Shown: in pieces, positions 14,401 through 39,852 of the stretch
Layout: the number at the start of each line of letters is the position of its first letter
Numbering within the stretch: the stretch's first letter is position 1
Assembly (NCBI GenBank): GCA_017560085.1
Contig: JAFYPA010000089.1
Span: 1 to 64,000, forward strand
Source of the DNA: Clostridia bacterium
GTDB taxonomy: Bacteria; Bacillota; Clostridia; Oscillospirales; CAG-382
Reading direction: 5' to 3'
DNA length: 64,000 nt
The notes under the pieces: generated by a model
What the model was told of the DNA's origin: nothing
The model's database searches: none
What the model saw: only the letters and a program-made list of their open reading frames with translations
Translations under genes and position numbers: made by a program

Positions 14401-17400
14401 ACTACATCAAGGGTGATGTTCACCTTCAGGATGATGTTGTAAAGTTACAGACTAAGGACCTCGAAATTATTGGTGTTGGTGCAAACAGAACAGATACAAT
14501 GCTTCACTACCAGTCCTCTGTTTACTGTACCAAGTACAGCCTCACACTCAGAAATGTAGGCGTAAACAAGGAAAACAGCGGTGACTGTGCATTCCATTGT
14601 ACAAACGACCTTACAATTACACTTGACAATGTACTTGCTACAAACTATGGCTTCAACCTCTTCGGTGGTGGTCACAGCAATGACGCAGGTGGTAACATTG
14701 TAATCAAGGGTGACACAGGTCCTGTAAACTCTATTTACACAGGTGTTGCTTCCTGGCAGCAGGGTCACCACGTAGGTGGCGATATTGATGTTATCATCGA
14801 AGGCGGTAAGTTCACCGGCACAGTTGGTAACAACAAGAACCAGACAAACAACTACATCGACGGTAACGTAAGAATCACAATCACAGGCGGTACATTCGGC
14901 GGCACAGTTGCTATCGGTAGCACAGATGACAACTCCGCAGTAAAGAAGAACGCAGTTCTCACAATTCTCGGCGGTGACCTTACAAACGCAAAGATCGGTA
15001 GAACAACATCTGCTACAAAGGTTAGCGGTAAGGACATCATCATCACAACAGCAGAAATCAAGAAGAGTGCAGGCACATTCAACAAGGCTTCCAACGGTAT
15101 CGTAATTCTCGTTCCCGCTGACAAGACTGATGCAATCGGCGCTGAAACAGTTGACGCTAACGGTTACATCACAGAATACGCTATCAACCAGGTTGAAGGC
15201 AAGACATCCTATGTAAACGGCGTTGCTGCAACAAAGCTCGCTCTTACAGCAGGCGAAACATACGAAATCACTTACAAGACAGCAAATGCTATCGAATTCA
15301 ACCTTAACGGCGGTACAGGTACAGCTCCTGCTACAATCAACGGTAATGCAGGTGACGTTGTAACTGCTCTCCCCGCTCAGGACGGCTTCGAAAGAACAAA
15401 CTACACATTCAAGGGCTGGGCTCTTACTCCCGATGCTACAGAGGCTGTTTCCTCCATCACAATCACAGCTGAAGGCGTTATCGCTTATGCTGTTTGGGAA
15501 CCCAAGCCTCAGGCGGTTATTACTCTTAATGCTAACGGCGGTACATCTGAAGCTTCCGTAACTGTATTCCAGGGCGAAGAAACATTGCTTCCCACAGCAT
15601 CCAAGCCCAAGGCTGCATTCCTCGGCTGGGCTGAAAGTGCAGACGCTACAACAGGTACTCTCAAGTACACAGTTCCCGTAGGAACAACAGCTGTTACTCT
15701 CTACGCTATCTACAACGAAGTTGGTATGGATATCATCTACGTTGACACAACAGCAGCGAAGAACGGTGACGGTAAGACAAGCGCAACTCCTATGAACGAC
15801 TGGAAGAAGGCAATGGCAGCAGGTAGTGCGGACGGTACAATGTACGTTCTTATGACAACTACTATCGTATCCAAGTCTTCCACAGTTGGTAGTGACTTCG
15901 GCTCAGCAAAGGGTCCCTTCACTCTTACAGCTACAGACCCCGCAACAGGTGTGGTTTACAACTCCGCAGCTGTATTCAGTACAAACGGTCACTACTCCAA
16001 GCAGTCCGTTACATATGATATCCCTGTAGCAGCTATCGACCATACAGGTATGCACATTAATGCAAGCGGATACAACACATACTTCACAAAGAATGCAAAG
16101 TTCATCGCTAAGGGTGAAGCTATTCCCGGCCTCACAGAAACTGCTTCCGCTAACATCTACATCAGAGGTCGCGGCGAAAACGGTACTGTAACATCCACAT
16201 ACTATGAATTCGATGACGTTGACGTTGTAACAAACGACATCAGACTCATTGCAAACGGAAGCTCCAAGTCCACAACATCTACTGTTGTTATTAACGGTGG
16301 TGCAAACGATAAGAAGTTCAGCCTCGGTTCGTCCAACACATACGGCACACTTAATGTTATCGTTAACGGCTTCAGCGGCACCGGCAAGACAATTACTCTT
16401 GATGCTGCTGCAACCATCAATGTAATGAACCTCATTACAAACAACGACACAGCAAACAACATTACATTCAGCTACACAGCTGTTCCCTCTACAACATACA
16501 TCATCAAGTCTACTTCCGAAGGTAAGGTAATGCCTACTGCAACAGCAGGTACATTCGAAATTACAACAGAAGAAGACAACATCTTCGCTAACGGCGTTAA
16601 GCTCACAAAGAGCGCAGACAACCGCTATGCTCTCGGTGCAGCAGGCACATATGTAATCACATATGACCAGACTCCCAGACACACAGTTACCTACAAGGCT
16701 AACGGTGGTGAAGGTGCAGATGTAACAGCAACACTCAAGGAAGGCGCAAGCATCAACCTTGCAACAGACGCTGCAGCATTCACAAAGACAGGCTACAAGC
16801 TCGTAGGCTGGAACACAGATGCTAACGCAACAACAGCTCTCACAGCTCTTGAAATGGGCACAGCAGACGTTACACTCTATGCAGTTTGGGAAGAAATCAA
16901 GCACCTTGTATCCTTCGATGCTAACGGTGCAGAAGGTACTGCTCCCGCTGCCATGAATGTAAGAGAAGGCGCTGAAATCGTACTTCCCACAGAAGTAGAG
17001 CTTACAATGACAGGCTTCAGCTTCCTCGGCTGGAACACAGACAAGGATGCTACAGAGGCTCTCTCCTCCCTCACAATGGGCAAGGAAGACATCACTCTCT
17101 ATGCTATCTGGAAGGAAAAGCTCCACAAGGTAACTTACGACGTTAACGGCGGCGAGGGCACAGCTCCCGAAGCAATCGACGTTCGTGAAGGTCTTGCAAT
17201 TGCACTTCCCACAGAGGTTGCATTCACAAAGGCAGGCCACACATTCATGGGTTGGGCAGAATCCGCTGATGCAACTCAGGCACTCGCAAGCCTTACAATG
17301 GGTACAGCAGACGTTACACTTTACGCTGTATGGGCAGTTGAAACCTACAAGGTAACATTCAACGCTAACGGCGGTAATGTAGCAGGTACACTCGCTGATA

Positions 17401-18854
17401 TGACAAAGACATACGGCGTTGACCTCACACTTCCCACAGACTACATTCTCTACGGCACAGGTCTTGAATTTGCAGGCTGGTCTGTAAATCCCGATGCTGA
17501 TGCTTCCGAGGTAGTTACTGTTTACACAGAAAACGCTCCCGCAGACTTCTTCGCAATCTACAACAAGGTTGGTACAGACGACGTTACTAACACAGATGAG
17601 CTTGCAGAAGGTACATATCTTGTTATGGAAGAGTCCGAAGCAGAAATCGAAGCTCCCGCATTCGATATCCCCGGCACTGTTAAGGAAGTTGCAAAGTACG
17701 ACATCACTCTTATGAATGCAGTAACAGGCGAAAAGACTCAGCCCGCTTCTCACCTCACCTTCACAATCCACTGTGATGAAGAGGCAGTTGCAGGCAAGGC
17801 AGTTTACGTATATCACGTATGCGACGAGCCCGAGCTTCTTACAGCAAGCGTAAATGGTGGCGATGTAACATTCAAGACAGAGCATCTCTCCACATTCGTT
17901 GTTTACACAGTTGAGGTTGAGGCTTCCTACATCCTCAATGGTCAGTACAACAATGTAAGCGGTCTCTACACAGTATCTCTCTTCTACAACGGTGTAGAGG
18001 CTAACAGCGGTTCCTTCGGCTTCGCTTATGATGCAGATGTTTACACATTCGACAGCTTCGCATATGCTGAAGGCTTCGATGCAGTAATCGAAACAGCATA
18101 CGACGAAGAGGCTTCCGCTATTACAGGTACATGGTATCCCACATCCGGCGCATATGTTGGCGGCAACGATGAAGATATTCTCGTTGGTACATTCACCTTC
18201 ACATGTGCACTTGAAGACTACGACATGGCTCTCGCTTCCGATAGATTCTTCGAATTCAAGGATGCAGAAGTTGATGACGAAACATTCAACGGTGAATATT
18301 ACCTCTACGCTCCCAACAAGGCAGGCGACCTCAATGTAACATTCGCTCCCATCGTAACTCTCGCAGTTGTTGATGCTGAGCCTATCACAGTTACATATGA
18401 AGTAACAGCAAGCCTCGTAACAGAAAGAGCTGACGGTGATGCTCCCGTATCCTTCGCTAAGGCAATCATCACAACAGCTACAGGCTCCAAGGTTGCTGAA
18501 TTTGCAATCGAAGACGAAGCAACAGCTACAGGTACTGTTGAATTCACATTCGAAATGGCTCCCGGTACATTCAACCTTACAGTTATCAAGAACGGCTACC
18601 TCGAAACAACTGTTGAATTCACAGTTGCTGAAGAAGACCTCGACCTCGGTGACATCGCTCCCGTAGCAGGTGACATCAGAGGCAACGAAGCAGACGCACA
18701 GGGTGACGGCGTAATCGATCTTGCGGACTTCGTAAGAGTACTCAGAGGCTTTGAATTCGAAGAACTCGCTTCTCACGTTGACATCAACGAAGACGGCGTA
18801 GTTAACGTAACAGACCTCGGATTCGTAAAGGCAAACTTCGCACAGACAAAGTAA
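11442..18854 (+). CDS. Giant secreted multidomain paralog: metallophosphoesterase, repeats, cohesin-like domain, dockerin (2470 aa)
   Basis: This is the same domain order as the preceding gene: signal peptide (cleavage near SAAG), N-terminal beta domains, and a calcineurin-type metallophosphoesterase with D313, H315 (SDVH), D358 (DGDMTD), N445/H446 (GNHDE), H630 and H664/H666 (GGHSH). Beta-helix-like regions rich in GGTF/GGKF follow, then six Listeria/Bacteroides-type repeats (two near residues 1281-1426, four at 1747-2043), the cohesin-like region (QYNNVSGLYTVSLFYNG), the regulatory-like domain and a C-terminal dockerin with loops DAQGDGVIDLAD and DINEDGVVNVTD. Codon choice is extremely narrow (Lys AAG, Thr ACA, almost no TTA or TCA), which suggests strong expression. 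The AGGAGG RBS and the start of the coding sequence resemble the first copy. It may dock to a cohesin-bearing partner not present here. Confidence 0.85.
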   Translation: MKKLFSAILASLLILSTLSFVASAAGDPIVVSPSQLNVNVDKDAGMTRTITTKDGLPVIKMEPVTSSGDCFRVDGYNIGSRNVTISDYKYVSMDYYYETSLTDSASNPILGTKAAINMLQLRLNGTNTSREFTSDEVIVANRWARVTFNIASIAANGLTNNSDGNTHKQYHLYPLGRNTKGNTANGTIYINNLTFHTEPVGIPTITSVQFAKSEIEIEKGYSMSLPEVKVVGENGPMQDVTYTVAGHSSASTILSNGSVYVGEDETATSFTVTATSIVDPDKSAVCTVKVKNPAPRTEFDADNVVVRFGVVSDVHQNGYYGGAVTDGSAQEWSHVIDVFQQTAKDDGAVLDAIVIDGDMTDGISNNGSNVGSFNSYGDKAMQNMREVTNFAKGVWGKNNGPEFTETKKVIDSTKKNATGYTTATSVVGRGNGFDATTRLFYSLGNHDESGRGKSTAPTKNIDGKDVKFSAVYSADYFAAIICGWQHNPDSDEAKTNSIGGTGTYQDGFEHSYRNYIADLIDYNTNANTTVTATSFESKYGVKLSSADALFDQFYGHLDLETTLTDKNNGLSLGNMHMTIDPDKTNGTTDDRLHFIAVELSQSNDSCAWAEAIIKTSIEENPAKPIFVFTHYKMPNSMYGGDESSITRLHNVIKNYPQVIIWGGHSHTTMHNDNAINTELGYVAVETNTTRYLSTSSGLTLSSKYGKATVNSNADKPHTPFNYSGHEAAVSNGIYVEVDKNNNVRLNRVDIYRSYSTMFAQDTGLYTQSKYTNFNNHAYNPEFKAVNEVVFIREPWDITDIGTGKHLSDFNTSTRTQKTGKPYFENVANTLKAESVIGGLDVTFTMNAKDDGMVMLYVLEVKDAAGTVVHRRYYTNFYYEYPQNPTATYAGNMLAEKQYTANVTGLNPATEYTVELFAMDDFYVAGEPIAVKATTKDGNTKIALEDGRVGVFVDITGATAEYKHTDGKTYLVYSSFASAIAAEADVVYYIKGDVHLQDDVVKLQTKDLEIIGVGANRTDTMLHYQSSVYCTKYSLTLRNVGVNKENSGDCAFHCTNDLTITLDNVLATNYGFNLFGGGHSNDAGGNIVIKGDTGPVNSIYTGVASWQQGHHVGGDIDVIIEGGKFTGTVGNNKNQTNNYIDGNVRITITGGTFGGTVAIGSTDDNSAVKKNAVLTILGGDLTNAKIGRTTSATKVSGKDIIITTAEIKKSAGTFNKASNGIVILVPADKTDAIGAETVDANGYITEYAINQVEGKTSYVNGVAATKLALTAGETYEITYKTANAIEFNLNGGTGTAPATINGNAGDVVTALPAQDGFERTNYTFKGWALTPDATEAVSSITITAEGVIAYAVWEPKPQAVITLNANGGTSEASVTVFQGEETLLPTASKPKAAFLGWAESADATTGTLKYTVPVGTTAVTLYAIYNEVGMDIIYVDTTAAKNGDGKTSATPMNDWKKAMAAGSADGTMYVLMTTTIVSKSSTVGSDFGSAKGPFTLTATDPATGVVYNSAAVFSTNGHYSKQSVTYDIPVAAIDHTGMHINASGYNTYFTKNAKFIAKGEAIPGLTETASANIYIRGRGENGTVTSTYYEFDDVDVVTNDIRLIANGSSKSTTSTVVINGGANDKKFSLGSSNTYGTLNVIVNGFSGTGKTITLDAAATINVMNLITNNDTANNITFSYTAVPSTTYIIKSTSEGKVMPTATAGTFEITTEEDNIFANGVKLTKSADNRYALGAAGTYVITYDQTPRHTVTYKANGGEGADVTATLKEGASINLATDAAAFTKTGYKLVGWNTDANATTALTALEMGTADVTLYAVWEEIKHLVSFDANGAEGTAPAAMNVREGAEIVLPTEVELTMTGFSFLGWNTDKDATEALSSLTMGKEDITLYAIWKEKLHKVTYDVNGGEGTAPEAIDVREGLAIALPTEVAFTKAGHTFMGWAESADATQALASLTMGTADVTLYAVWAVETYKVTFNANGGNVAGTLADMTKTYGVDLTLPTDYILYGTGLEFAGWSVNPDADASEVVTVYTENAPADFFAIYNKVGTDDVTNTDELAEGTYLVMEESEAEIEAPAFDIPGTVKEVAKYDITLMNAVTGEKTQPASHLTFTIHCDEEAVAGKAVYVYHVCDEPELLTASVNGGDVTFKTEHLSTFVVYTVEVEASYILNGQYNNVSGLYTVSLFYNGVEANSGSFGFAYDADVYTFDSFAYAEGFDAVIETAYDEEASAITGTWYPTSGAYVGGNDEDILVGTFTFTCALEDYDMALASDRFFEFKDAEVDDETFNGEYYLYAPNKAGDLNVTFAPIVTLAVVDAEPITVTYEVTASLVTERADGDAPVSFAKAIITTATGSKVAEFAIEDEATATGTVEFTFEMAPGTFNLTVIKNGYLETTVEFTVAEEDLDLGDIAPVAGDIRGNEADAQGDGVIDLADFVRVLRGFEFEELASHVDINEDGVVNVTDLGFVKANFAQTK
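16675..17570 (+). repeat. Four tandem Listeria/Bacteroides-type repeats in giant protein 2
   Basis: Four consecutive units of about 72 residues open with VTYKANGGEG, VSFDANGAEG, VTYDVNGGEG and VTFNANGGNV, and close with LYAVWEE, LYAIWKE, LYAVWAV and FFAIYNK. GWNTDANAT/GWNTDKDAT/GWAESADAT lie in the middle. The first giant protein has only two units here, so the number of spacers differs between the paralogs. Confidence 0.75.
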
Positions 18855-21286: not shown

Positions 21287-21317
21287 GATAAAGTCATTTA
21301 CGGCTTTATCTCATCAA

Positions 21318-21535
21318 AGAGCCGGCGCCAGACCATTCTTTGGTTAACGAGGCGGAGGTTTATCGAAGCATTCGGCGGGTACCTCCCGGCACATCGGCTG
21401 TCGTAATGCAAGGTACAAATACTCGGGTAACCGGGGAACAAAGGCTTTGCAGGGCTGAAAATCAAATAAGGTATTCAAGGGATATGCATAAGTGTTCTAT
21501 GGCTCTCACTATCGGGTTATGCATACCCCTTTTAA
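21318..21535 (+). ncRNA. glmS ribozyme (glucosamine-6-phosphate-activated)
   Basis: The 5' leader of glmS carries the conserved core of this self-cleaving riboswitch: GCGCCAGACC at 21325 (cleavage expected just before it), TTAACGAGGCGGAGGTTTA, then ATCGAAGCATTCGGCGG and GTACCTCCCGGC, and the P4 hairpin ACTCGGGTAACCGGGG near 21420. When GlcN6P is abundant, it cleaves the glmS mRNA and exposes it to RNase J, so the product of GlmS limits its own synthesis. A further hairpin pairs 21479-21491 with 21517-21529, just before the glmS RBS. Confidence 0.95.
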
Positions 21536-29485: not shown

Positions 29486-30889
29486 ATGAAAAAGTTAATT
29501 AGTTTAGCTCTTTGTGCAGTTCTTGCTTCTTCTATGACAGTTATGACTGCATTCGCAGCACAGAATGACAAGGTTGTTCAGGTTAACGTTATGGACGGTC
29601 TCTGTACTCTCGTTGACAACGCTGCAACAAATCACCAGGCTTCCAACTATGCTCTTTGCTTCGCTGAAGCATACGGCACAGGCAGAACAACAGAAGATGA
29701 CGCTGTGTTCTGGGAAAACGTAACATTCGAAAAGGACGTTAAGCAGGTTGCTATCAAGTGTGGTTACAACCTCGGTGGCGACAAGGCAGGCACAAGCACA
29801 CAGTTCTGGCTCTACCTCGACAAGATCGATGGCGAACCCATCGCTAAGGTTGAAGTAAGCGACGCTGAAACTGCTTCCTCTCAGATTAAGGACCAGGTTC
29901 TTAAGTTTGCTGACGTAGACATCAAGGCTGGTACATACAAGGTATTCGTTGTTGGTAAGACAGAATATTCAGGTTCTGTTTCCCAGATCAACTTTATGTA
30001 CAACAAGATGGACGCTGCTACACTTGCTCCCATCGCTGATACTCTCAGACAGGCTGACCTCGACAAGCTCGCAGCTCGTGCAGCTGTAAAGGCTAACATC
30101 GTTCAGGTTAACGTTCTCGACGGTGCTTGCACACTCATCGACAACGCTGCTACTAACCACCAGGCTTCCAACTATGCTCTCTGCTTCGCTGAAGCATACG
30201 GCACAGGCAGAACAACAGAAGATGACGCTGTTGTTTGGGAAGAAGTTAAGTTCGACAAGGCAGTTAAGCAGCTCGCAGTTAAGTGCGGCTACAACCTCGG
30301 CGGCGACAAGGCTGGTACAGGTACAGAATTCTGGGTATACCTCAACAAGATTGAAGGCGAGCCCATCGCTAAGGTTGCTGTAAACGATTCCGAAACAGCT
30401 TCCTCTCAGATCAAGGATCAGGTTTACAAGACAGCTGATGTTGAAATCGAAGCTGGTACATACAAGGTATTCGTAGTTGGTAAGACTGAATACTCCGGCT
30501 CTGTTTCTCAGATCAACTTCATGTATGAGCCCGTTGACGTTGCTTCCGAAGACTTCCTTCTCGCTGCAGCTGCTAAGAGAACAACTGACGTTGAAAAGGC
30601 AGCTAAGGTAGTAGCTAAGAGACTTGAAGAAGAAAAGAAGGCAAGAGAAGAAGCAAAGAAGGCTGAAGAAGAAGCAAAGAAGGCTGAAGAAGAAGCTAAG
30701 GCAGCTGAAGAAGCAGCTAAGGCTGAAGAAGAAGCTGCAGCAGCTGAAGAAGAAGCAGCAGTTGAAGAAGCTCCTGTTGAAGAAACAGAAGAAAAGGCAG
30801 GTCTTCCCGTACTTCCCATCGCAATCGGTGCAGTTGTAGTTATCGCTGTTATCGCTATTGCAGTAGTTCTCGGCAAGAAGAAGAAATAA
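29486..30889 (+). CDS. Surface protein with two near-identical beta domains, Glu/Ala/Lys stalk and C-terminal membrane anchor
   Basis: 467 residues. A signal peptide (cleavage near TAFA) leads into two domains of about 140 residues (30-170 and 204-345) that share long stretches such as DNAATNHQASNYALCFAEAY and KTEYSGSVSQINFMY. The motifs CGYNLGGDKAG, FW(L/V)YL(D/N)KI-GEPIAKV and AGTYKVFVVGK recall carbohydrate-binding modules of family 6-like beta-sandwiches, where FWLYLD...GEPIA is typical. Residues 360-435 are an alpha-helical stalk of Lys/Glu/Ala repeats. A hydrophobic helix (LPVLPIAIGAVVVIAVIAIA) and a KKKK tail anchor it in the membrane. The likely role is binding of glycans at the cell surface; the ligand is unknown. 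Confidence 0.75.
   Translation: MKKLISLALCAVLASSMTVMTAFAAQNDKVVQVNVMDGLCTLVDNAATNHQASNYALCFAEAYGTGRTTEDDAVFWENVTFEKDVKQVAIKCGYNLGGDKAGTSTQFWLYLDKIDGEPIAKVEVSDAETASSQIKDQVLKFADVDIKAGTYKVFVVGKTEYSGSVSQINFMYNKMDAATLAPIADTLRQADLDKLAARAAVKANIVQVNVLDGACTLIDNAATNHQASNYALCFAEAYGTGRTTEDDAVVWEEVKFDKAVKQLAVKCGYNLGGDKAGTGTEFWVYLNKIEGEPIAKVAVNDSETASSQIKDQVYKTADVEIEAGTYKVFVVGKTEYSGSVSQINFMYEPVDVASEDFLLAAAAKRTTDVEKAAKVVAKRLEEEKKAREEAKKAEEEAKKAEEEAKAAEEAAKAEEEAAAAEEEAAVEEAPVEETEEKAGLPVLPIAIGAVVVIAVIAIAVVLGKKKK
29575..30525 (+). repeat. Internal direct duplication of the CBM6-like domain
   Basis: Copy 1 spans about 29575-30000 and copy 2 about 30100-30525. More than thirty consecutive residues around DNAATNHQASNYALCFAEAY are almost unchanged, and the DNA is also very similar. 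This points to recent duplication or gene conversion. Confidence 0.8.
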
Positions 30890-31076: not shown

Positions 31077-31925
31077 TTATATTATTACGGATTCGCTTCG
31101 TTTTCTGAAGGTTCCCGGTGAGATTCCGCAAACGTTCTTGAAGCATTGTGAAAAATGTGCAAGCGTTTTAAAGCCGCATTTTACGGCTATTTTTTCAAGG
31201 GTAAGGTTGGAGGTTATAAGAAGCTCCTTGGCTGATTCGATTCGCTCTGTTATAAGGAAGCTGTGCATTGTTGTGCCGATGTTTTCCTTGAATACTCGGT
31301 TTATGTAGTTAGGGTGATAGTGGAAGACCTCCCCTATTGTCTCAATGTCGCAGGGCTCGGAAATGTGCTCGAGGAGGTATTGCTTTACGGATGCGGCAAG
31401 GCGAACCTCCTTTTTTACGGGAGTCAGCGAGCGACGGAGGCAGGAAATCAGAATTCCGCAAAGGATTGATTCTCCCTTTTGTCTGTAGCCGAGCTCGCGC
31501 TTCTGGAACTCGGTGAAGATATCCAGTATTCGTTCGGAGACTGATGAGGCGTCGCTTATCACTATTGTGCGTTCAAGCTCGGGGATTCTGTCTTTTTCAA
31601 AGACACGGCTTTTATCAAAATTCGAGGAATTATCGGGATGGACGGATTCCACCGTGGGGTCGCACTTTATACAGTCAAAGTTTATGCAGAGTATATCGCA
31701 TCCGCTTTCGTCAACGGCTGAGAGCTTATAGGCGGTTTCGGGCGGTATCATAACGAGGGAATTCTTTTCAAGAAGATGCTCGGAATCTTTGAAATTTAGA
31801 AACAGGCTTCCGCCCATAATATAGAATATTCTGTAGTCGTAGCCGAGCACAAATTCGGGTTCCTTCGGGTAATAGTTGAAAATATTGATAAATCTTATGT
31901 GCGGTGAAAGGTTGGAGAAATCCAT
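31077..31925 (-). CDS. AraC-family transcriptional regulator
   Basis: 282 residues. The N-terminal part (1-150) is cupin-like and would sense a ligand (YDYRIFYIMGGSLFLNF, NSLVMIPPETAYKLS). The C-terminal part (about 180-280) is a two-HTH AraC domain: IETIGEVFHYHPNYINRVFK, then LTLEKIAVKCGFKTLAHFSQ and the closing CGISPGTFRKR. It is divergent from the U32-like/QueG-like operon, with 120 bases between the start codons, and is the probable regulator of that operon. The operon promoter has a poor -35 box, as expected for an AraC-activated promoter. Confidence 0.9.
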   Translation of the reverse strand: MDFSNLSPHIRFINIFNYYPKEPEFVLGYDYRIFYIMGGSLFLNFKDSEHLLEKNSLVMIPPETAYKLSAVDESGCDILCINFDCIKCDPTVESVHPDNSSNFDKSRVFEKDRIPELERTIVISDASSVSERILDIFTEFQKRELGYRQKGESILCGILISCLRRSLTPVKKEVRLAASVKQYLLEHISEPCDIETIGEVFHYHPNYINRVFKENIGTTMHSFLITERIESAKELLITSNLTLEKIAVKCGFKTLAHFSQCFKNVCGISPGTFRKRSESVII

Positions 31926-31981
31926 AATTTTATCCTCATAGGTTTATTTTTTATAAATTTAAGTGTGTTTTTAGTATTTAT

Positions 31982-32005
31982 TATATCAGATAAATGTGAT
32001 ATAAT
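31982..32005 (+). promoter_or_regulatory. Operon promoter with overlapping 7-bp inverted repeat
   Basis: TATAAT at 32000-32005 preceded by TGA (extended -10), without a good -35. TATATCA (31982-31988) and TGATATA (31997-32003) form a perfect inverted repeat with an 8-base spacer that overlaps the -10. It could be a binding site for the divergent AraC protein or another regulator. This is inferred from the sequence. Confidence 0.5.
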
Positions 32006-32045
32006 GAGAATGGTATGTAAACATTTTTGCGAAAGGGAGGATTTT

Positions 32046-33095
32046 ATGAAATTCAATGTCGGTTATCAGCTGCTTGAGGACGAAAGTCTTATTGACGGTA
32101 TAATCGCACACAAGGATGACATTTACGAGGTTTACTTCTCCTTCGGTGATTTTCCCAACGGCAGAAACAATCAGCTGAAAAGTGAGATTTTCACGCCGTA
32201 CGAGGCTCAGGAAAAACAGCTTTCCGATCTTGAGAAGCTTTCTAAGGCAGGTCTTCATTTCAATCTTCTTTTCAACGGAAACTGCTACGGCAAGGACAGT
32301 CTTTCACGGGCGTTCTTCTCCAAGGTCGGAGACACGACAGACTATCTTATGAGAAAAATCGGGATAAATTCCGTCACTGTCACCTCCCCCGTTATTGCGA
32401 AGTTCTTCAAGGCGAATTTCGAGGAGCTTGAGGTAAGGGCTTCCGTCAATATGGAGATTGGCTCTGTTGAGGGAATGGATTATATTTCGGATGTGTTTGA
32501 TTCCTATTATATGAAGCGCGAGTACAACAGGGATTTCGGTAAAATCCGTGAGCTTAAAAAATGGTGCGACGACAACGGCAAGAAGCTTTTCGGTCTATGC
32601 AACAGCGGATGTCTCAACAACTGCTCGGTACATAATTTTCACGATAATCTTGTGGCTCACGAGAGTGATATTTCCGCTATGGACAACGCTTACGATTTCA
32701 GAGGCAAGTGCTGGGAGTATCTCTCGAAGGGTGACAATGCGAAGTATATGATTCAGCGAAGCAACTACATTCGTCCCGAGGATGTTCATCTTTACGAGGG
32801 TCTTTTCGAGGCTCTAAAGCTCGCTACGAGAATCAATGCATCTCCCATCAAGGTAATTCACGCGTATACCTCGGGCAGATTCTACGGCGGTATAAACGAG
32901 ATTCTTGAGCCCAATCATTCTTCGGTAATTGCACCGAATTTCCTTGACAACAGCAAGTTCCCCAAGGACTTTGCGGAAACTGTCGGTAATTGCAGCAAGG
33001 ACTGTCAAGGCTGTAATTACTGCACGGAAGTATACAACAAAATTCTGACTAAATTAAACGGAGGTTATATTTATGCTGACAAGCAAAATGATTAA
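32046..33095 (+). CDS. U32-peptidase-like TIM-barrel protein with two Cys clusters
   Basis: 349 residues from the ATG at 32046 (GGGAGG upstream); no signal peptide. The barrel-like body (DIYEVYFSFGDFPNGRN, AGLHFNLLFNGNCYG, INSVTVTSPVIAKFFKAN, LEVRASVNMEIGS) resembles the U32 family fold, as in UbiU/UbiV and the tRNA/rRNA hydroxylation proteins that hold a 4Fe-4S cluster. Two groups of cysteines support metal binding: C185/C189/C193 (CNSGCLNNC) and C316/C320/C323/C326 (CSKDCQGCNYC). The last 23 bases overlap the next gene, whose RBS lies inside this one. The catalytic role is unknown; a redox or radical-free hydroxylation chemistry is only inference from the family. Confidence 0.65.
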   Translation: MKFNVGYQLLEDESLIDGIIAHKDDIYEVYFSFGDFPNGRNNQLKSEIFTPYEAQEKQLSDLEKLSKAGLHFNLLFNGNCYGKDSLSRAFFSKVGDTTDYLMRKIGINSVTVTSPVIAKFFKANFEELEVRASVNMEIGSVEGMDYISDVFDSYYMKREYNRDFGKIRELKKWCDDNGKKLFGLCNSGCLNNCSVHNFHDNLVAHESDISAMDNAYDFRGKCWEYLSKGDNAKYMIQRSNYIRPEDVHLYEGLFEALKLATRINASPIKVIHAYTSGRFYGGINEILEPNHSSVIAPNFLDNSKFPKDFAETVGNCSKDCQGCNYCTEVYNKILTKLNGGYIYADKQND

Positions 33096-34152
33096 GGAAG
33101 CAGCCCTTGCGGCAGGTGCCGACAAATGCGGTATTGCTCCTATGTCCAGATTTGCGGGTGCACCGGATGAAATGAATCCCGCAAAGCTTTTCCCCGAAGC
33201 GAAATCCTGCATCGGCTTTGTTTTCAGAATCCCCAGAGGCGTTCAGAGAGGTATTGAGGAAGGTACACAGTTCTATCAGTATCCTTCTATGGCCTACGGC
33301 GGTATCAATGAAATTTTCGCTCCTGCGGTGCTTTATCAGGTAGGCAGACTTATTGAGGACGAGGGCTATGAGGCTTTCGTATACAGAAATACAGGTGCGA
33401 GAGGCGTTGTTTCCGATATGGATGGGTCAGAGGGTAACACACTTTCTCCCGAAGAACAGATTGAGGTTGAGGAAAACGCAAAGAAGTCCACGGCTCACCA
33501 CAGAAGCGTAAGCTTTACAAGACCTACAAGAGAAGGATATACAGCTCCCGACCTTCAGTTCCAGTTCAGACTTGCGGCTGTAGCCTGCGGTCTCGGTGAA
33601 ATCGGCTGGAGCAAGATGCTTCTTACTCCCGAATTCGGTCCTCTTCAGAGAGTTGCGTTCCTCTTTACGGATGCAGAGCTTGAATATGATGAAATGTACA
33701 ACGGCGAGCCTCTTTGCCGTAAGTGCGGTGCCTGTGTAAGAGAATGTCCCGGCGGTTGTATTCCCGCTATGAATTCCGGAAAGACAATTACGGTTGACCT
33801 TGCGGGCAAGATATGTGAATGGGGCGACATTGATATGTGGCGTTGCTATGCGTTCTACACACACGCGGGCAGATACTACAATCCCTTTGTTAAGAAGGAA
33901 GTATTCGACAAGAACGAGGACGGCGCTCTTGACCTTCTTGAGGGTAAGACAGATATTGCAAACGAGCAGGAAATTATGAAGGTATACAATGCACTTCAGA
34001 AGTACTTCCCCTCTTGGGTTGGTTACAATATGGCAAAGTGCGGAGGATGCATCAGAGCCTGCGTAAGCATGCTTGAAAAGAAGGGCGGATGTATGGAAGA
34101 AAGATTCCACGCACCTCTCAGAACAAAAAAAGCATGGAAGCTTGACAGATAA
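33073..34152 (+). CDS. Epoxyqueuosine-reductase-like 4Fe-4S protein, copy A
   Basis: 359 residues. QueG-type features are the N-terminal AGADKCGIAPMSRFAG, CGLGEIGWSKMLLTPEFGP, VAFLFTDAELEYD and the ferredoxin motif C215-x2-C218-x2-C221-x3-C225-P (CRKCGACVRECPGGCIP). A second Cys group, C323-x2-C326-x3-C330 and C340, could hold a second cluster. True QueG reduces epoxyqueuosine in tRNA using cobalamin and two 4Fe-4S clusters. These proteins diverge in the middle (YQYPSMAYGGIN) and come in three tandem copies, so another substrate is likely. This copy is the longest, with an extra basic C-terminal stretch. It starts inside the end of the preceding gene with CGGAGG upstream. Cytosolic. Confidence 0.7.
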   Translation: MLTSKMIKEAALAAGADKCGIAPMSRFAGAPDEMNPAKLFPEAKSCIGFVFRIPRGVQRGIEEGTQFYQYPSMAYGGINEIFAPAVLYQVGRLIEDEGYEAFVYRNTGARGVVSDMDGSEGNTLSPEEQIEVEENAKKSTAHHRSVSFTRPTREGYTAPDLQFQFRLAAVACGLGEIGWSKMLLTPEFGPLQRVAFLFTDAELEYDEMYNGEPLCRKCGACVRECPGGCIPAMNSGKTITVDLAGKICEWGDIDMWRCYAFYTHAGRYYNPFVKKEVFDKNEDGALDLLEGKTDIANEQEIMKVYNALQKYFPSWVGYNMAKCGGCIRACVSMLEKKGGCMEERFHAPLRTKKAWKLDR

Positions 34153-34165
34153 GGAGGAGCACAGA

Positions 34166-35065
34166 ATGATTACAAGTAAGCTTATAAAGGAAACAGCAAT
34201 CAAGTACGGTGCCTCCAACTGCGGAATCGGTACTCTTAATGCATTTAAAGGTGCTGACAAGCAGCGTGACCCTTATATGATTCTCCCCGGTGCAAAGTGC
34301 ATTATCGGCTTTGAATTCAGAGTTCCCTCGGGACTTTACAAGGCTATGGAAAACGGAAATCAGGTATTTTCATATACAACCTTCGGCGTTAAGAACTATG
34401 ACGAGGAATTTGCTGAAATATTCCTTCTTCGTATTGGTGCTCTTATAGAGGACGACGGCTGGGATGCTTGTCTTCAGCGTTCTTATGCTAATCTTCGCAC
34501 CAAGGGTGACACAGACACAAATCCCGAGGTTATGGACACATATGTCCTTGACTCGGATGCGGTTGAGGAAGGTAAGGCATGCCCCGACGTTGTAATTGAT
34601 TTCGGTACTGCGGCAAAGGCTTGCGGTCTCGGTGAGACAGGTCTTTCAGGCAAGGTTATTTCCAAGAAATACGGTCCTTACGTAAGATATGCGTTTATTA
34701 TTACGGATGCTCCTCTTGAAACAGATGCAGAGCTTGATGCTCCTCTTTGCGACAACTGCGGCAAGTGCATTGCGGCTTGTCCCGGTAAAGCTATATCCGA
34801 CAAGGGTTTTGACACATGGCAGTGCTCTGTTTACTACAGAGGTGCTCACAAGTCCAATCCCCGTATGACGGATGACTTTTTGAAGGACGATCCCAACAGA
34901 GAAGCTATTCTTAACGGTGACTACAGATTCGATGCGGAAAGTGCGAGAAAGATGTACAAGAAGCTTGACTTCCTTCCCGAATTCAAGGGCTATGCACCCT
35001 GCTTCTGCGCAAAGAAGTGCGACACTGTCTGCTACAACCACTTAAAGGAGGTCGGAAAGATATGA
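34166..35065 (+). CDS. Epoxyqueuosine-reductase-like 4Fe-4S protein, copy B
   Basis: 299 residues from the ATG at 34166, which follows AAGGAGGAG; an upstream in-frame ATG inside copy A is rejected. It shares with copies A and C the N-terminal ASNCGIGTLNAFKGAD pattern, the CGLGETGLSGKVISKKYGP block and the ferredoxin motif C195-x2-C198-x2-C201-x3-C205-P (CDNCGKCIAACPGKAI). The C-terminal Cys group is C279-x-C281-x3-C285-x3-C289 (CFCAKKCDTVC), which differs from copy A. Its stop codon overlaps the start of copy C by four bases (ATGA). It may form a hetero-oligomer with its neighbours; this is inference. Confidence 0.7.
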   Translation: MITSKLIKETAIKYGASNCGIGTLNAFKGADKQRDPYMILPGAKCIIGFEFRVPSGLYKAMENGNQVFSYTTFGVKNYDEEFAEIFLLRIGALIEDDGWDACLQRSYANLRTKGDTDTNPEVMDTYVLDSDAVEEGKACPDVVIDFGTAAKACGLGETGLSGKVISKKYGPYVRYAFIITDAPLETDAELDAPLCDNCGKCIAACPGKAISDKGFDTWQCSVYYRGAHKSNPRMTDDFLKDDPNREAILNGDYRFDAESARKMYKKLDFLPEFKGYAPCFCAKKCDTVCYNHLKEVGKI

Positions 35066-36024
35066 CATTCACGGAAACACTCAGAAAATTCGTTCTTGAC
35101 GTTGCAGGTGCCGACCTTTGCGGTATTGCTCCCGCTTCCCGTTTTGACAAGGACGACCCTATATTCAAGATTTATCCCGAGGTTAAGTCGGTTATCGCTA
35201 TCGGCTTCAGAATTCTCAGAGGTGCTGTCAGAGGTATCGAAGAGGGTACTACATATTATCAGTACACAACTATGGCTATTGAATGTCTTGAGGAAACCGT
35301 TATGCCCTGTGCCGCAATTCAGGTTGCAAACTTCCTTGAGGATAACGGCTATGTTGCTCTTCCCCAGAGAAAGCATCAGCATTTCACTGCTGAGACCGAA
35401 GAGACAAATCCCGAAATTCTTCACGATTACATAAGATACGGCGAAACAGCCGAGGTTCAGATGAATGTTGACGATGCGGCTGTTAAGTGCGGTCTCGGTG
35501 AAAAGGGACTTCACGGCAGAATACTCTGTGATGAGTTCGGTCCGCTTCTCCGTTATCAGTTTATTCTAACAAATGCAGAGCTTGACGCCAACGAAATGTA
35601 CACGCCTCATCTTTGCGACAAGTGCGGTGAATGTGTAAAGGCTTGTCCCGGCAAGGCTATCGCAGAGGACGGCAAGGTTAACACATGGCAGTGTGCGGCT
35701 TATTATGCAGGTGCAAACGGCACGAAGAATCCCTTTATGCAGCCCACTGCATATGCGGATTTTGACAACAGACTCGACATTATTGCAGGTGAAGCGAAGG
35801 TTGACAAGGAGCTTTGCGGAAAGATTCTTGACGCAACGGTATTCTATCCCCCCATCGGTAAGGGACACGCATACAGATCCTCTATCTGCGGTAAGGCGTG
35901 CGACACAGCCTGCTACATTCATCTCGAAGAAAAGGGAGTACTTACAAAGAAATTCAAGGAAAAGTTCAGAAAGCGTCCCGAGTGGAAGTTTGATATTTCC
36001 GATTTCGATGTAATAAAGAAGTAA
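35062..36024 (+). CDS. Epoxyqueuosine-reductase-like 4Fe-4S protein, copy C
   Basis: 320 residues from the ATG at 35062, with AAAGGAGG inside the end of copy B. Key blocks are AGADLCGIAPASRFDK, VKCGLGEKGLHGRILCDEFG, C185-x2-C188-x2-C191-x3-C195-P (CDKCGECVKACPGKAI) and the C-terminal C276-x3-C280-x3-C284 (CGKACDTAC). The C terminus continues as a basic helix (KKFKEKFRKRPEWKF). The ATGA overlap with copy B and a 3-base gap to the next gene place it firmly in the operon. The substrate is unknown. Confidence 0.7.
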   Translation: MTFTETLRKFVLDVAGADLCGIAPASRFDKDDPIFKIYPEVKSVIAIGFRILRGAVRGIEEGTTYYQYTTMAIECLEETVMPCAAIQVANFLEDNGYVALPQRKHQHFTAETEETNPEILHDYIRYGETAEVQMNVDDAAVKCGLGEKGLHGRILCDEFGPLLRYQFILTNAELDANEMYTPHLCDKCGECVKACPGKAIAEDGKVNTWQCAAYYAGANGTKNPFMQPTAYADFDNRLDIIAGEAKVDKELCGKILDATVFYPPIGKGHAYRSSICGKACDTACYIHLEEKGVLTKKFKEKFRKRPEWKFDISDFDVIKK

Positions 36025-36027
36025 GAT

Positions 36028-37716
36028 ATGAATGCTATAATTTATTTTACAGACAAAGAAGTAAAGACGGTTGAGCTTACAGAGAGCAAATCCGGAAACA
36101 AGACCGTACTCACACTTCCCCTTTCCGCTTTTGGTGGAAAGCAGGTTGAAACCGTTGACTTTGCAAAGGAGCTTTTCACTGCAAAGGTTGGTGACGAGGG
36201 TTATGCGGTTGTTCCCAGCGGTAACACGGGTACACTTCTTTGTGAATTCAACGAAAAGGCTGAAGGCGAGCACACCTCAACAGGTGCTGTTATGTCCTGC
36301 TTCGGCTTCAGACACTGCGGTAAGGCTACTCTTGCTATTTGCAAGGGATGCGAAAACGACCTTAAGACAAAGCTTGTTCTGAAGGACAGTATTTATTCTC
36401 TTTATGCACACTATGTGTTTGACAGCTTTGTTCCTTATGAGGATATCACGGTTGAATATATTGACCTCGGTGATGCTGATTACTCCGATATGGCTCGTGA
36501 GTACAGACGCTATCAGATCGAGGAAAGAGGCTGTGTTCCGATAAAGGATCGTGCAAAGGTACAGCCCGAGCTTTCAAAGAATGTTGACTCTATTGAAATC
36601 AGAGTTCGTCTTGCGTGGAAGCCTGCGCCCTCACCTTATGCTCATCAGACAATACTCAACGAGCCTGATATGCATGTTGCTCTTACCTTTGACGAGGTTT
36701 ACGAGCTTTGTAAGAAGCTCAAGGACAATGGTGTTGAAAAGGCTGAAATCTGTCTTGTAGGCTGGAATATGAAGGGACACGACGGAAGATGGCCTCAGTG
36801 CTTCCCCGTTGAAAAACAGCTCGGCGGTGAGGAAAAGCTCCGTGAGCTTATAAAGAATGTAAAAGAGCTCGGATACAGCATTGTAGGTCACACAAACCAC
36901 AGAGATATGTATCAGATTGCAAGCAACTGGTCGGATGACGATGTATCGGTAAAGCGCGACGGCACTCTCAACGACCACCCGATTTTCTGGAGTGGCGGAC
37001 AGCCCTTCGTTGCTTGTCCCGATGCATCTGTAAGATATGCGGAGGATATTCTTCCCAAGACGGCAGACCTCGGCTTTACGGGGCTTCACTACATTGACGT
37101 TCTTACGGTTCTTCCGCTTCATATGTGTCACAGCAAGGTGCATCCCGCATCTACAGGTGATACCGCTAAGGCTTACGGCAAGATTCAGGAGATGTCCAAG
37201 GATTTGTTCGGCGGATTCGGCTCCGAGGGTCCCTATGACTTTGCGGCGAAGGATCTTGACTATGTTCTTTACACAAGCTTTAATCTTATGGACAACAAGC
37301 CTGCTCTGTGCGACGAAATAATCCCCTTCTGGCAGCTTGTATACCACGGCATTATACTTTATAACCCCGGCACGGAAACGGTTAATTACGCCATTAAAAA
37401 CGAGCAGAATAAGCTTAAGTTCCTTGAGTTTGGCGGAAGACCCATTGCTTACGTTTACTCCAAGTTCCTTTGTAACCACGACTACGAGGTTGACTGGATG
37501 GGTAGCGAGGACTTCACACTGAGAAACGAAAAGGATACCGAAAGAACGGTTTCAGGCATTGCAAAAATGTACTCCGATTACAGTACGCTTTCCGCTCTTC
37601 AGTATGAGTTTATGGAAAAGCATACCAGGATTTCCGACGGTGTATATGAGACTACTTATTCCAACGGAACTGTTGTTACGGTTGACTATAACAATCTCAG
37701 CTATACAATCAAGTAA
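36028..37716 (+). CDS. DUF5696-like glycoside-hydrolase-like TIM barrel
   Basis: 562 residues, no signal peptide. An N-terminal beta domain (1-150) leads into a barrel with VEKAEICLVGWNMKGHDGRW, PQCFPVEKQLGGEEKLRELI, SIVGHTNHRDMYQIASNW, GFTGLHYIDVLTVLPLHMCH and GGFGSEGPYDFAAKDLDYVL. This pattern matches DUF5696-type proteins, which are thought to be glycosidases related to GH101/GH36-like barrels. The Asp in HYIDV and the Glu in GSEGP are candidate catalytic residues. The gene begins 3 bases after the last QueG-like gene and has only a weak RBS, so it depends on coupling. A terminator follows. How a glycosidase works with Fe-S proteins is unclear. Confidence 0.6.
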   Translation: MNAIIYFTDKEVKTVELTESKSGNKTVLTLPLSAFGGKQVETVDFAKELFTAKVGDEGYAVVPSGNTGTLLCEFNEKAEGEHTSTGAVMSCFGFRHCGKATLAICKGCENDLKTKLVLKDSIYSLYAHYVFDSFVPYEDITVEYIDLGDADYSDMAREYRRYQIEERGCVPIKDRAKVQPELSKNVDSIEIRVRLAWKPAPSPYAHQTILNEPDMHVALTFDEVYELCKKLKDNGVEKAEICLVGWNMKGHDGRWPQCFPVEKQLGGEEKLRELIKNVKELGYSIVGHTNHRDMYQIASNWSDDDVSVKRDGTLNDHPIFWSGGQPFVACPDASVRYAEDILPKTADLGFTGLHYIDVLTVLPLHMCHSKVHPASTGDTAKAYGKIQEMSKDLFGGFGSEGPYDFAAKDLDYVLYTSFNLMDNKPALCDEIIPFWQLVYHGIILYNPGTETVNYAIKNEQNKLKFLEFGGRPIAYVYSKFLCNHDYEVDWMGSEDFTLRNEKDTERTVSGIAKMYSDYSTLSALQYEFMEKHTRISDGVYETTYSNGTVVTVDYNNLSYTIK

Positions 37717-37723
37717 AAAAATT

Positions 37724-37750
37724 GCCTCCCTTTTCGGGAGGCTTTTGATT
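37724..37750 (+). terminator. Intrinsic terminator of the Fe-S/DUF5696 operon
   Basis: GCCTCCC pairs with GGGAGGC across TTTTC, followed by TTTTGATTT. Confidence 0.8.
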
Positions 37751-37812: not shown

Positions 37813-39852
37813 TTATTCAGCTTCGGTTGCTTCAGCTTCTTCTGCAGGAGCTTCTTGGGCTGCTTCTGCGGATTCTTCTGTAGCTTCTGCAGCTTCCTCT
37901 GTTGCTTCTTCAACAGCCTCTTCTGCTTCCTCTGCTACTTCCTCGGATTCCTCTTCGGCTGCAGATTCGTCTTCCTCAACGGGAGGCTCGAGACCTGCCT
38001 TTCTGCCGTAGGGGTAAGATACCATCATGTTTCTTACGAAGTTACCGTAAGGAGTACTGAAGTTGTACCAGATGTGTGTATCGAATGCGAGGTTTTCGTT
38101 TACATTGCCAAGCTTTGCAAGGAACTCGTCATATCTTTCAGCGAAGGGACGGTCGCCTGTACCTGCAAGGAAGTCTGCGTAGTAGTCTCTTGCGATTGCT
38201 ACCATTTCTTCCATTTCAGCCATCTTGTCCTCTGTGATGTCGTCGCCTGTAGCGGAATCGATGAATTCGGGTCTGTAGCCGTTGAATGCGCCTACCCAGG
38301 ATTCAGTGTTCTGAATCTTCTGACCCTCGAACTCGTCGGGTGTACCGGAGAGTCTGTACTTGATGTACTTGTTACCTGTGTGGTTGTTGTTCATCTTGTA
38401 GCCGTTACCGTCGTCGATAAGAACTACTGTCTTTTCTTCATCGAGCTTATAGCTTCCTTCAAGGGGCTCTTCAGCGCCTTCGGGAATGTATGTGGACTTG
38501 CCGTCCTCAACACCCCACTGAAGGAGGTTTGCGAGTGCGGGTCTTACATTGAATGCTTCGATGATTTCCATTGCTCTGTCCTTGTTGTAAGACTTTGCGC
38601 TGATGGAGAACACGCCGGAGAGAACTTCCTTGTTGTCAAACTTGGGGTACTTGTAGGTGATGAAGATGTAATCTCTTTCGTCCTGAGCCTCAAGTGCTTC
38701 CTCTGCCATTGTGGAGCCTTCGATGATCTGGATTGCGTATCTTGCGTTGTCAGCGGCATTTTCATCTGCGATGTAGCCTGCCTGCTTGTAGTTGTAGATT
38801 GCTTCGAAGTGAGCTCTTACTGTATCGTTGTGATATACGGAGTAAAGTCTGTCGTGCCATTCTGTGCTTTCGAATACAACACCTACGGGAGAGCCTTCTT
38901 CAAGATAGAACTCTACATTTCCGGGAGAGGTTGTCTTGTTAAGCGGAATTACGTTGGGCTCGTTAGTCTTAACAGCCTTGAGGAACTCTTCGAACTTGGG
39001 GAATGTATTGTAGTTTTCAGCAACGTACTTTTCGAAATATTCATCGTAAAGCTCTTCGGACTTGAAGCTGTCCTTTGCCTTGGGAGCTGTGATGTACTTT
39101 TCTGCAAGCTCCTTGTCGATTACGATGTATTCGTATGTACCGATAGGACCGTTTACGGGAATACCGTATGTGTTCTTACCGCCAAGCTTTGCAGCTTCAA
39201 GGTAAGAGGGATAAATGTAGGATGTGAGAATCTTGCTTTCAGCCTTGAGGTAGCTGTCAAGAGGAGCGAGCTTTGTGGGGATATCCTTGCCGTCCTCGTC
39301 AACACCCGGATATGCGTATTCATAGTACTTGTCGTAGTCGTTGAATACGATAATGTCAATCTGGGGAACCTCGGGGTCGATGCTTATACCGTTCTTACGC
39401 ATATCGGTATAAATTTCGTCGAGAGAAAGGCTCTTTTCGGCTTCTTCTTCCTCTTCAGCCTTCTTGTCCTTCTTGCCCTTCTTATCTTCCTCTGCCTTTG
39501 CTTCCTTTTCTTCCTTCTTCTTGTTTTCCTTTTCTATCTTCTTTGCTTCTTCGTAAGCATCGATATCTGCAAGGGTCTGCTCGATTGTTGTCCAGTACTC
39601 TTCTTCCTTAAGGAAGTTAATGTTGAGCTTTGTCTTGAGATCCTTGATTGTGATTTCGTTGATGGCAATTTCAACAGCCTGCTTCTGCTCGTCTGTTGTT
39701 TCGTCGTCTGTTACGATGAACATATTGAGAGTGACAAGCTTGAGGTTCTGGTCGTCTGCCTTTTCTTCATCCTTTTTTTCGCAGCCTGTAAGTGCTGTGG
39801 TCATAAGCATAACCAGGCAAAGCATAAGCGAAAGAAGCTTTGTGATTTTCAT
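37813..39852 (-). CDS. Extracellular solute-binding lipoprotein (sugar ABC transporter type), orphan
   Basis: 679 residues. A lipoprotein signal ends in LTGC with C24 as the lipidated residue. Blocks such as LGGKNTYGIPVNGPIGTYEY, IPLNKTTSPGNVEFYLEEGS, GVFSISAKSYNKDRAMEIIE and GYKMNNNHTGNKYIKYRLSG fit large LplA-type binding proteins for oligosaccharides. Two unusual parts stand out: a Lys/Glu-rich insert at about residues 100-143, between the first strand region and LSLDEIYTDM, and an acidic Glu/Ala tail of about 60 residues at the C terminus. No permease or ATPase gene is near, so the transporter partner must be elsewhere. CAGGAGG precedes the ATG. The very biased codons leave the opposite strand open for almost 700 codons. 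Confidence 0.85.
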   Translation of the reverse strand: MKITKLLSLMLCLVMLMTTALTGCEKKDEEKADDQNLKLVTLNMFIVTDDETTDEQKQAVEIAINEITIKDLKTKLNINFLKEEEYWTTIEQTLADIDAYEEAKKIEKENKKKEEKEAKAEEDKKGKKDKKAEEEEEAEKSLSLDEIYTDMRKNGISIDPEVPQIDIIVFNDYDKYYEYAYPGVDEDGKDIPTKLAPLDSYLKAESKILTSYIYPSYLEAAKLGGKNTYGIPVNGPIGTYEYIVIDKELAEKYITAPKAKDSFKSEELYDEYFEKYVAENYNTFPKFEEFLKAVKTNEPNVIPLNKTTSPGNVEFYLEEGSPVGVVFESTEWHDRLYSVYHNDTVRAHFEAIYNYKQAGYIADENAADNARYAIQIIEGSTMAEEALEAQDERDYIFITYKYPKFDNKEVLSGVFSISAKSYNKDRAMEIIEAFNVRPALANLLQWGVEDGKSTYIPEGAEEPLEGSYKLDEEKTVVLIDDGNGYKMNNNHTGNKYIKYRLSGTPDEFEGQKIQNTESWVGAFNGYRPEFIDSATGDDITEDKMAEMEEMVAIARDYYADFLAGTGDRPFAERYDEFLAKLGNVNENLAFDTHIWYNFSTPYGNFVRNMMVSYPYGRKAGLEPPVEEDESAAEEESEEVAEEAEEAVEEATEEAAEATEESAEAAQEAPAEEAEATEAE

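Follow-up and report, generated by a model that had tools for sequence, protein, structure and literature searches.

A recurrent AraC-linked operon of gut Clostridia combining a U32-fold protein with three QueG-like paralogues: a candidate carbohydrate-linked reductive Fe-S system

Introduction

A 64,000-nt stretch of clostridial DNA (hereafter the window; unless a locus is named, all coordinates are positions in it) carries an AraC-type regulator opposite five plus-strand genes, three of which encode different QueG-like proteins. What would such a gene set do in a gut bacterium? The paper on the QueG structure notes that there may be more B12- and [4Fe-4S]-dependent families, which a motif search would not find (PMC4646009). 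In the open-access literature on operons of U32 and QueG genes, DUF5696, QueG-like paralogues and anaerobic sugar O-demethylation, we found no description of this gene set. Its parts belong to known superfamilies, but by the family tests applied here the proteins qualify neither as QueG nor as reductive dehalogenases. The best explanation of the whole, to which we assign a probability of about 0.4, is an AraC-controlled, sugar-linked reductive Fe-S system, in which QG1 would be the cobamide-dependent core, QG2 and QG3 a heterodimer and U32L their partner.

Results

Architecture of the locus

The genes U32L-QG1-QG2-QG3-GH were all present opposite AraC, as a sequence-only reading of the window had described. 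The junctions that it gave were exact: a 23-bp overlap between U32L and QG1, a 13-bp gap, a 4-bp ATGA overlap between QG2 and QG3, and a 3-bp gap. The features are the following.

31077-31925, minus strand: AraC-family regulator (AraC_binding and HTH_18, both above the Pfam cut-off), divergent to the operon
31997-32005, plus strand: putative extended -10 promoter box TGATATAAT of the operon, read from the sequence and kept in the intergenic region of a sister species
32046-33095, plus strand: U32L, predicted U32-fold TIM barrel (AF2 model, fold comparison, alignment)
33073-34152, plus strand: QG1, class III cobalamin/2x[4Fe-4S] reductase-like protein and nearly invariant catalytic candidate (AF2 model, cross-locus identity)
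34166-35065, plus strand: QG2, QueG/RdhA-like paralogue with all cluster cysteines kept (TIGR02486, hhalign to QueG, clade)
35062-36024, plus strand: QG3, QueG/RdhA-like paralogue (TIGR00276, hhalign, fusion halves by clade)
36028-37716, plus strand: GH, DUF5696 / GH129-like glycosidase (PF18952, alignment to 5wzn, conservation)
37724-37742, plus strand: terminator-like hairpin with a T tail

The listed open reading frame of U32L begins at GTG 31965. We consider ATG 32046 the better start, because it is preceded by a ribosome-binding site and the orthologue in a sister genome has its start codon (there GTG) at the same position. A single transcription unit for the five genes is no more than the simple reading, because promoter-like matches over the whole region were little above chance (14 versus 9.2 ± 3.4 expected from shuffled sequence).

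Beside the operon, 29486-30889 encodes a secreted protein with two near-identical repeats of ~150 aa, a stretch rich in E/A/K and a membrane helix at the C terminus, which adjoins the operon in the sister species too (L040, 64% identical). A 679-aa predicted lipoprotein with no Pfam family (37813-39852) is directly convergent with the operon. The window also contains a glmS ribozyme-riboswitch (21307-21461; RF00234, 80 bits) upstream of a 609-aa ORF at 21545, and two very long plus-strand ORFs at 4342-11184 and 11442-18854 (2280 and 2470 aa).

The gene order recurs, mostly in gut Clostridia

Conservation of the gene order had been set beforehand as a test of the proposal. The order U32L-QG1-QG2-QG3, judged only where the contig lets the neighbours be seen, recurred in about 36 distinct loci, defined by QG1 at >70% identity and counted after the genes were re-called. 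A divergent AraC gene lay upstream in 33 of 35 resolvable loci, the U32L-QG1 junction was mostly within -23 to +25 bp, and QG2 and QG3 met in a 4-bp ATGA overlap in 20 of 29 loci. The notion of one conserved gene set, AraC plus U32L-QG1-QG2-QG3, was thus upheld by its recurrence with tight junctions. A small cupin protein was encoded between QG1 and QG2 in 12 loci. A second, minimal form consisted of U32L and one QG1-like protein without QG2 and QG3 (L071-L076, L153, L158, L159).

When U32L and QG1 were used as queries, related loci turned up in 30 of 391 Clostridia genomes (distant U32 matches included), on GTDB contigs (14 loci) and, in further cases, in single orders and families. The distribution was patchy: in one order, 9 of 95 genomes had the operon. 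Nearly all loci came from metagenome-assembled genomes (MAGs) of gut Clostridia; the nameable hosts were all MAGs, and roe deer and goat caecum had yielded several of these. QG1 was not found outside Clostridia in a phylum sample, and the sole non-Clostridia copy that we found was on contig L050, from a MAG of Lentisphaerota (Victivallales), where a LacI-type regulator accompanies it. No DNA match to the region was present in the plasmid collection.

QG1, QG2 and QG3 are distinct, and QG1 is the most constrained

The three QG proteins of the window are 37-41% identical to one another. The tree placed them in three separate, supported clades, with the halves of fusion proteins included in those of QG2 and QG3; judged by this tree, they are three ancient orthologous groups. 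Recent duplication, considered as another origin for them, was ruled out by the separate clades. QG2 and QG3 form a single polypeptide in L048 (Lachnospiraceae, 612 aa) and in the Victivallales locus L050 (615 aa), the N-terminal half grouping with QG2 and the C-terminal half with QG3. The L048 and L050 halves occupy different positions in the tree, so the fusion probably has two origins. Fusion in two such distant hosts suggests that QG2 and QG3 form a complex.

Mean pairwise identity across the 21 loci with all five core genes was 84.9% for QG1, 66.0% for QG2, 64.7% for QG3, 55.9% for U32L and 33.4% for AraC, and QG1 was 79-94% identical across families. Fourfold sites at conserved residues agreed in just 30-35% of cases (0.30-0.35; 21 loci), which is near saturation, so the identity of QG1 points to purifying selection and not to recent transfer. 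By these sequence comparisons, the selection on QG1 is exceptional. In the alignment, a QG1-specific stretch at ~103-150 was nearly invariant and was absent from QG2, QG3 and shorter relatives. This insert was modelled at low confidence in isolation; it may fold on a partner or substrate, a shallow alignment being the other possible cause of the low confidence.

U32L has a predicted U32-type barrel and four invariant cysteines

The first gene of the operon had been called U32-like, which was borne out by its AF2 model (pLDDT 91, pTM 0.89): the match to the U32 structure 5d88 had a Z score of 18.8 (rmsd 3.0, 224 residues aligned), versus 12.4 for the next unrelated fold. According to this model, U32L belongs with the U32 family by fold. 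Like UbiU/UbiV, TrhP and RlhA, it combines a U32 TIM barrel with four conserved cysteines; unlike them, it scored below the PF01136 gathering score (14.6 versus 22.4 bits), its cysteine spacing differs and its sequence-level similarity, aligned to UbiU/UbiV, was not significant, so that only the fold comparison is convincing. C80, C189, C193 and C222 were invariant in 28 of 28 aligned sequences and are predicted to bind one [4Fe-4S] cluster. Two cysteine clusters had been proposed for this protein; these four residues stood, whereas the C-terminal CX3CX2CX2C is missing in about ten homologues and is dispensable. The spacing of the invariant cysteines is CXnCX3CX28C, and the CX6CX15CX3/4C motif of U32 oxidases is not matched. 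Published U32 motifs are CX6CX15CX3C in U32 oxidases and CXnCX12CX3C in UbiV (PMC6747719, PMC11574389).

The main rival to a system centred on QG1 assigns the catalysis to U32L. Like UbiU/UbiV, it would be a hydroxylase independent of O2 and would oxidise a sugar or a substituent on it, oxidative O-demethylation being one example, while the QG proteins supply or remove electrons. The U32 fold and the four invariant cysteines fit this idea, as does the existence of the minimal U32L and QG1-like pair without QG2 and QG3. Moreover, in one locus only (L067, 5853-7674), genes for DAHP synthase and prephenate dehydratase adjoin the operon, and U32 hydroxylases take their oxygen from prephenate (PMC11574389). 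However, the most constrained protein is QG1 and not U32L, the cysteine spacing differs from those of U32 oxidases and UbiV, and the prephenate link comes from that single locus. We rank U32L-catalysed hydroxylation first among the alternatives and consider it unlikely.

QG proteins share the class III architecture and score below the QueG and RdhA family cut-offs

The AF2 model of QG1 (pTM 0.82), our preferred catalytic core, matched QueG (Z 17.5 over 205 residues), RdhA (Z ~16) and the B12-handling protein MMACHC (Z ~10). The matches span the cobalamin-type domain and, for QueG and RdhA, include the ferredoxin part. The architecture of the class III superfamily, a nitroreductase-like cobalamin domain followed by a bacterial ferredoxin with two [4Fe-4S] sets, was recognised in QG1 by fold and in QG2 and QG3 by profile match (hhalign), together with invariant cysteines: each of the three proteins has its full set of eight cluster cysteines conserved. 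QG2 matched TIGR02486 (6.6e-14, obtained with the longer ORF 34073-35065) and QG3 matched TIGR00276 (4.5e-12), while the scores of the QG proteins did not reach the cut-off of either family (28-46 versus 200 bits for TIGR00276, 39-53 versus 160 bits for TIGR02486).

The RdhA enzymes PceA and NpRdhA have the fold in common with the QG proteins, which also carry an RdhA-like motif, GLGExx...PEFGPxxR. Unlike RdhA, the QG proteins fall far under the TIGR02486 cut-off, start directly at the catalytic domain without an N-terminal leader and have no halogen context. QueG, like QG1, has an N-terminal cobalamin-type domain and two [4Fe-4S] clusters; unlike QueG, the QG proteins lack both the DYH motif and the HEAT domain, and come as three distinct paralogues of one sugar-linked operon under AraC control. 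DYH was found in 0 of 96 QG1-3 proteins versus 11 of 11 real QueGs. As for the C-terminal HEAT domain, the alignment of QG1 stops at QueG residues 1-254, where QG1 ends, and QG2 and QG3 have 299 and 320 aa; short DYH-bearing QueG-like proteins of ~265 aa also leave little room for HEAT, so its absence alone is not decisive. The same genome encodes a separate DYH-bearing QueG on contig C26, and no QueH was found in it. The claim that three distinct QueG-like proteins in a row do not serve queuosine synthesis was thereby supported. Assignment of a catalytic Tyr or Asp by alignment was tried and rejected: QG1 reads G-I-N at the DYH position in an uncertain register, which puts Y75 three residues upstream of that position and the conserved D160 near D130 of QueG.

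No sequence motif is diagnostic of class III cobalamin proteins (PMC4646009), and cobamide binding is therefore unreadable from sequence. A cobalamin riboswitch occurred in 13 of 13 complete host genomes versus 68 of 83 in the class, little above a background that is too high to inform. Next in our ranking stands the view that QG1-3 work without cobamide, as Fe-S electron carriers or as a redox-sensing assembly that is tuned to sugar metabolism under anaerobic conditions. It draws on the fact that we only infer cobamide binding by QG1-3, on the missing DYH motif and on an operon without a donor or acceptor enzyme. On the other hand, the entire nitroreductase-like cobalamin domain is retained beyond the ferredoxin part, and the nearly invariant 103-150 insert of QG1 is not readily explained in a plain carrier, which makes this view doubtful.

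A system for RNA modification is very improbable. Only family analogy recommends it, as tRNA or rRNA is the target of QueG and of several U32 proteins (PMC6599085, PMC4646009), but the HEAT domain, the proposed tRNA binder of QueG, is missing, and the operon is patchy, AraC-controlled and located among sugar genes. Extra copies of ordinary queuosine biosynthesis genes, to which the weak TIGR00276 matches might point, can be dismissed, given scores far under the 200-bit cut-off and the QueG on contig C26, and a queuosine role of QG1-3 is refuted by the DYH motif test.

The last gene and its surroundings point to sugars and glycosides

GH matched PF18952 (DUF5696; 2.1e-49) with 169 bits, above the gathering score of 25.6 bits. 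What it shares with the GH129/DUF5696 glycosidases NagBb and DagB is the barrel and the two catalytic acids of NagBb: in an alignment to 5wzn, D357 and E400, which do not vary among six homologues, fall on the NagBb catalytic positions D435 and E478. D435 has been described as catalytic (PMC5698469). GH is found in only about a third of the resolved loci. Among 30 resolved 3' ends, 10 had GH, 11 had an oxidoreductase of the Gfo/Idh/MocA type, with inositol, levoglucosan and glycoside 3-dehydrogenases as its relatives (in two of them one or two genes further down), none had both and nine had neither. Hydrolysis by the glycosidase as an obligatory last step, as had been suggested, is contradicted by these ends, since GH was swapped for Gfo/Idh/MocA or absent in 20 of 30. 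By simple counting, the zero overlap of the two enzymes has a chance of about 0.003, which is indicative only because the loci are related. As both enzymes have sugars or glycosides as substrates, they may be alternative treatments of one kind of product.

Neighbours of the operon included an acetyl xylan esterase (AXE1) and GH109, and those of the minimal form a GH10 xylanase, GH28, parts of sugar ABC transporters and an AraA-like isomerase with an FGGY kinase. The proposed link to sugars and glycosides gained support from these neighbours and from GH or Gfo/Idh/MocA at the operon end; the neighbourhood argument is circumstantial, because sugar genes are common in the host genomes. In L074 (7481-14530), the minimal pair shares what looks like a sugar operon with DUF4432, an amidohydrolase, an AraA-like isomerase and an FGGY kinase.

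Discussion

We propose that the operon encodes a carbohydrate-linked system that probably performs cobamide-dependent reductive Fe-S chemistry. Orthology, gene order, predicted folds, conserved cysteines, the constraint on QG1, the fusion of QG2 with QG3 and the exchange of glycosidase for dehydrogenase are observations; its cobamide binding, complex, reaction direction and substrate are what we infer. It would serve some gut Clostridia as an accessory cytoplasmic redox system for carbohydrate catabolism under AraC control. QG1 would most likely be the catalytic core, with the cobamide bound base-off in the nitroreductase-like domain. Electrons would pass from ferredoxin through the two [4Fe-4S] clusters to yield Co(I) on QG1, which could attack a bond, C-O or similar, in a modified sugar or glycoside. 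A QG2-QG3 heterodimer may act as a second reductase or as an electron relay to QG1, and U32L, as a [4Fe-4S] TIM-barrel partner, may bind or activate the substrate oxygen. The glycoside bond would then be handled by the GH129-like glycosidase or, in other hosts, by the Gfo/Idh/MocA dehydrogenase, so that the sugar is freed or oxidised.

A bolder version is improbable: a new class III cobamide family, neither dehalogenase nor QueG, would work with a U32-type Fe-S protein in a multi-subunit complex and, in the anaerobic gut, strip plant sugars of a modification such as O-methyl or another C-O-linked group. The gene set offers a concrete, testable candidate for a B12- and [4Fe-4S]-dependent family of the kind that motifs miss, with QG1 as its nearly invariant core protein. 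The natural QG2-QG3 fusion points to a subunit pair, and the carbohydrate context suggests where to seek the substrate. As far as we found, U32L would be the first U32 Fe-S protein paired with this enzyme class.

The genome of the window holds further relatives of the QG proteins. On contig C40 (L054, 9231-11275), a tandem pair of them lies beside rpsB-tsf and an AraC gene, and on contig C82 (L055, 6524-8836), a 770-aa protein consists of two fused QG units.
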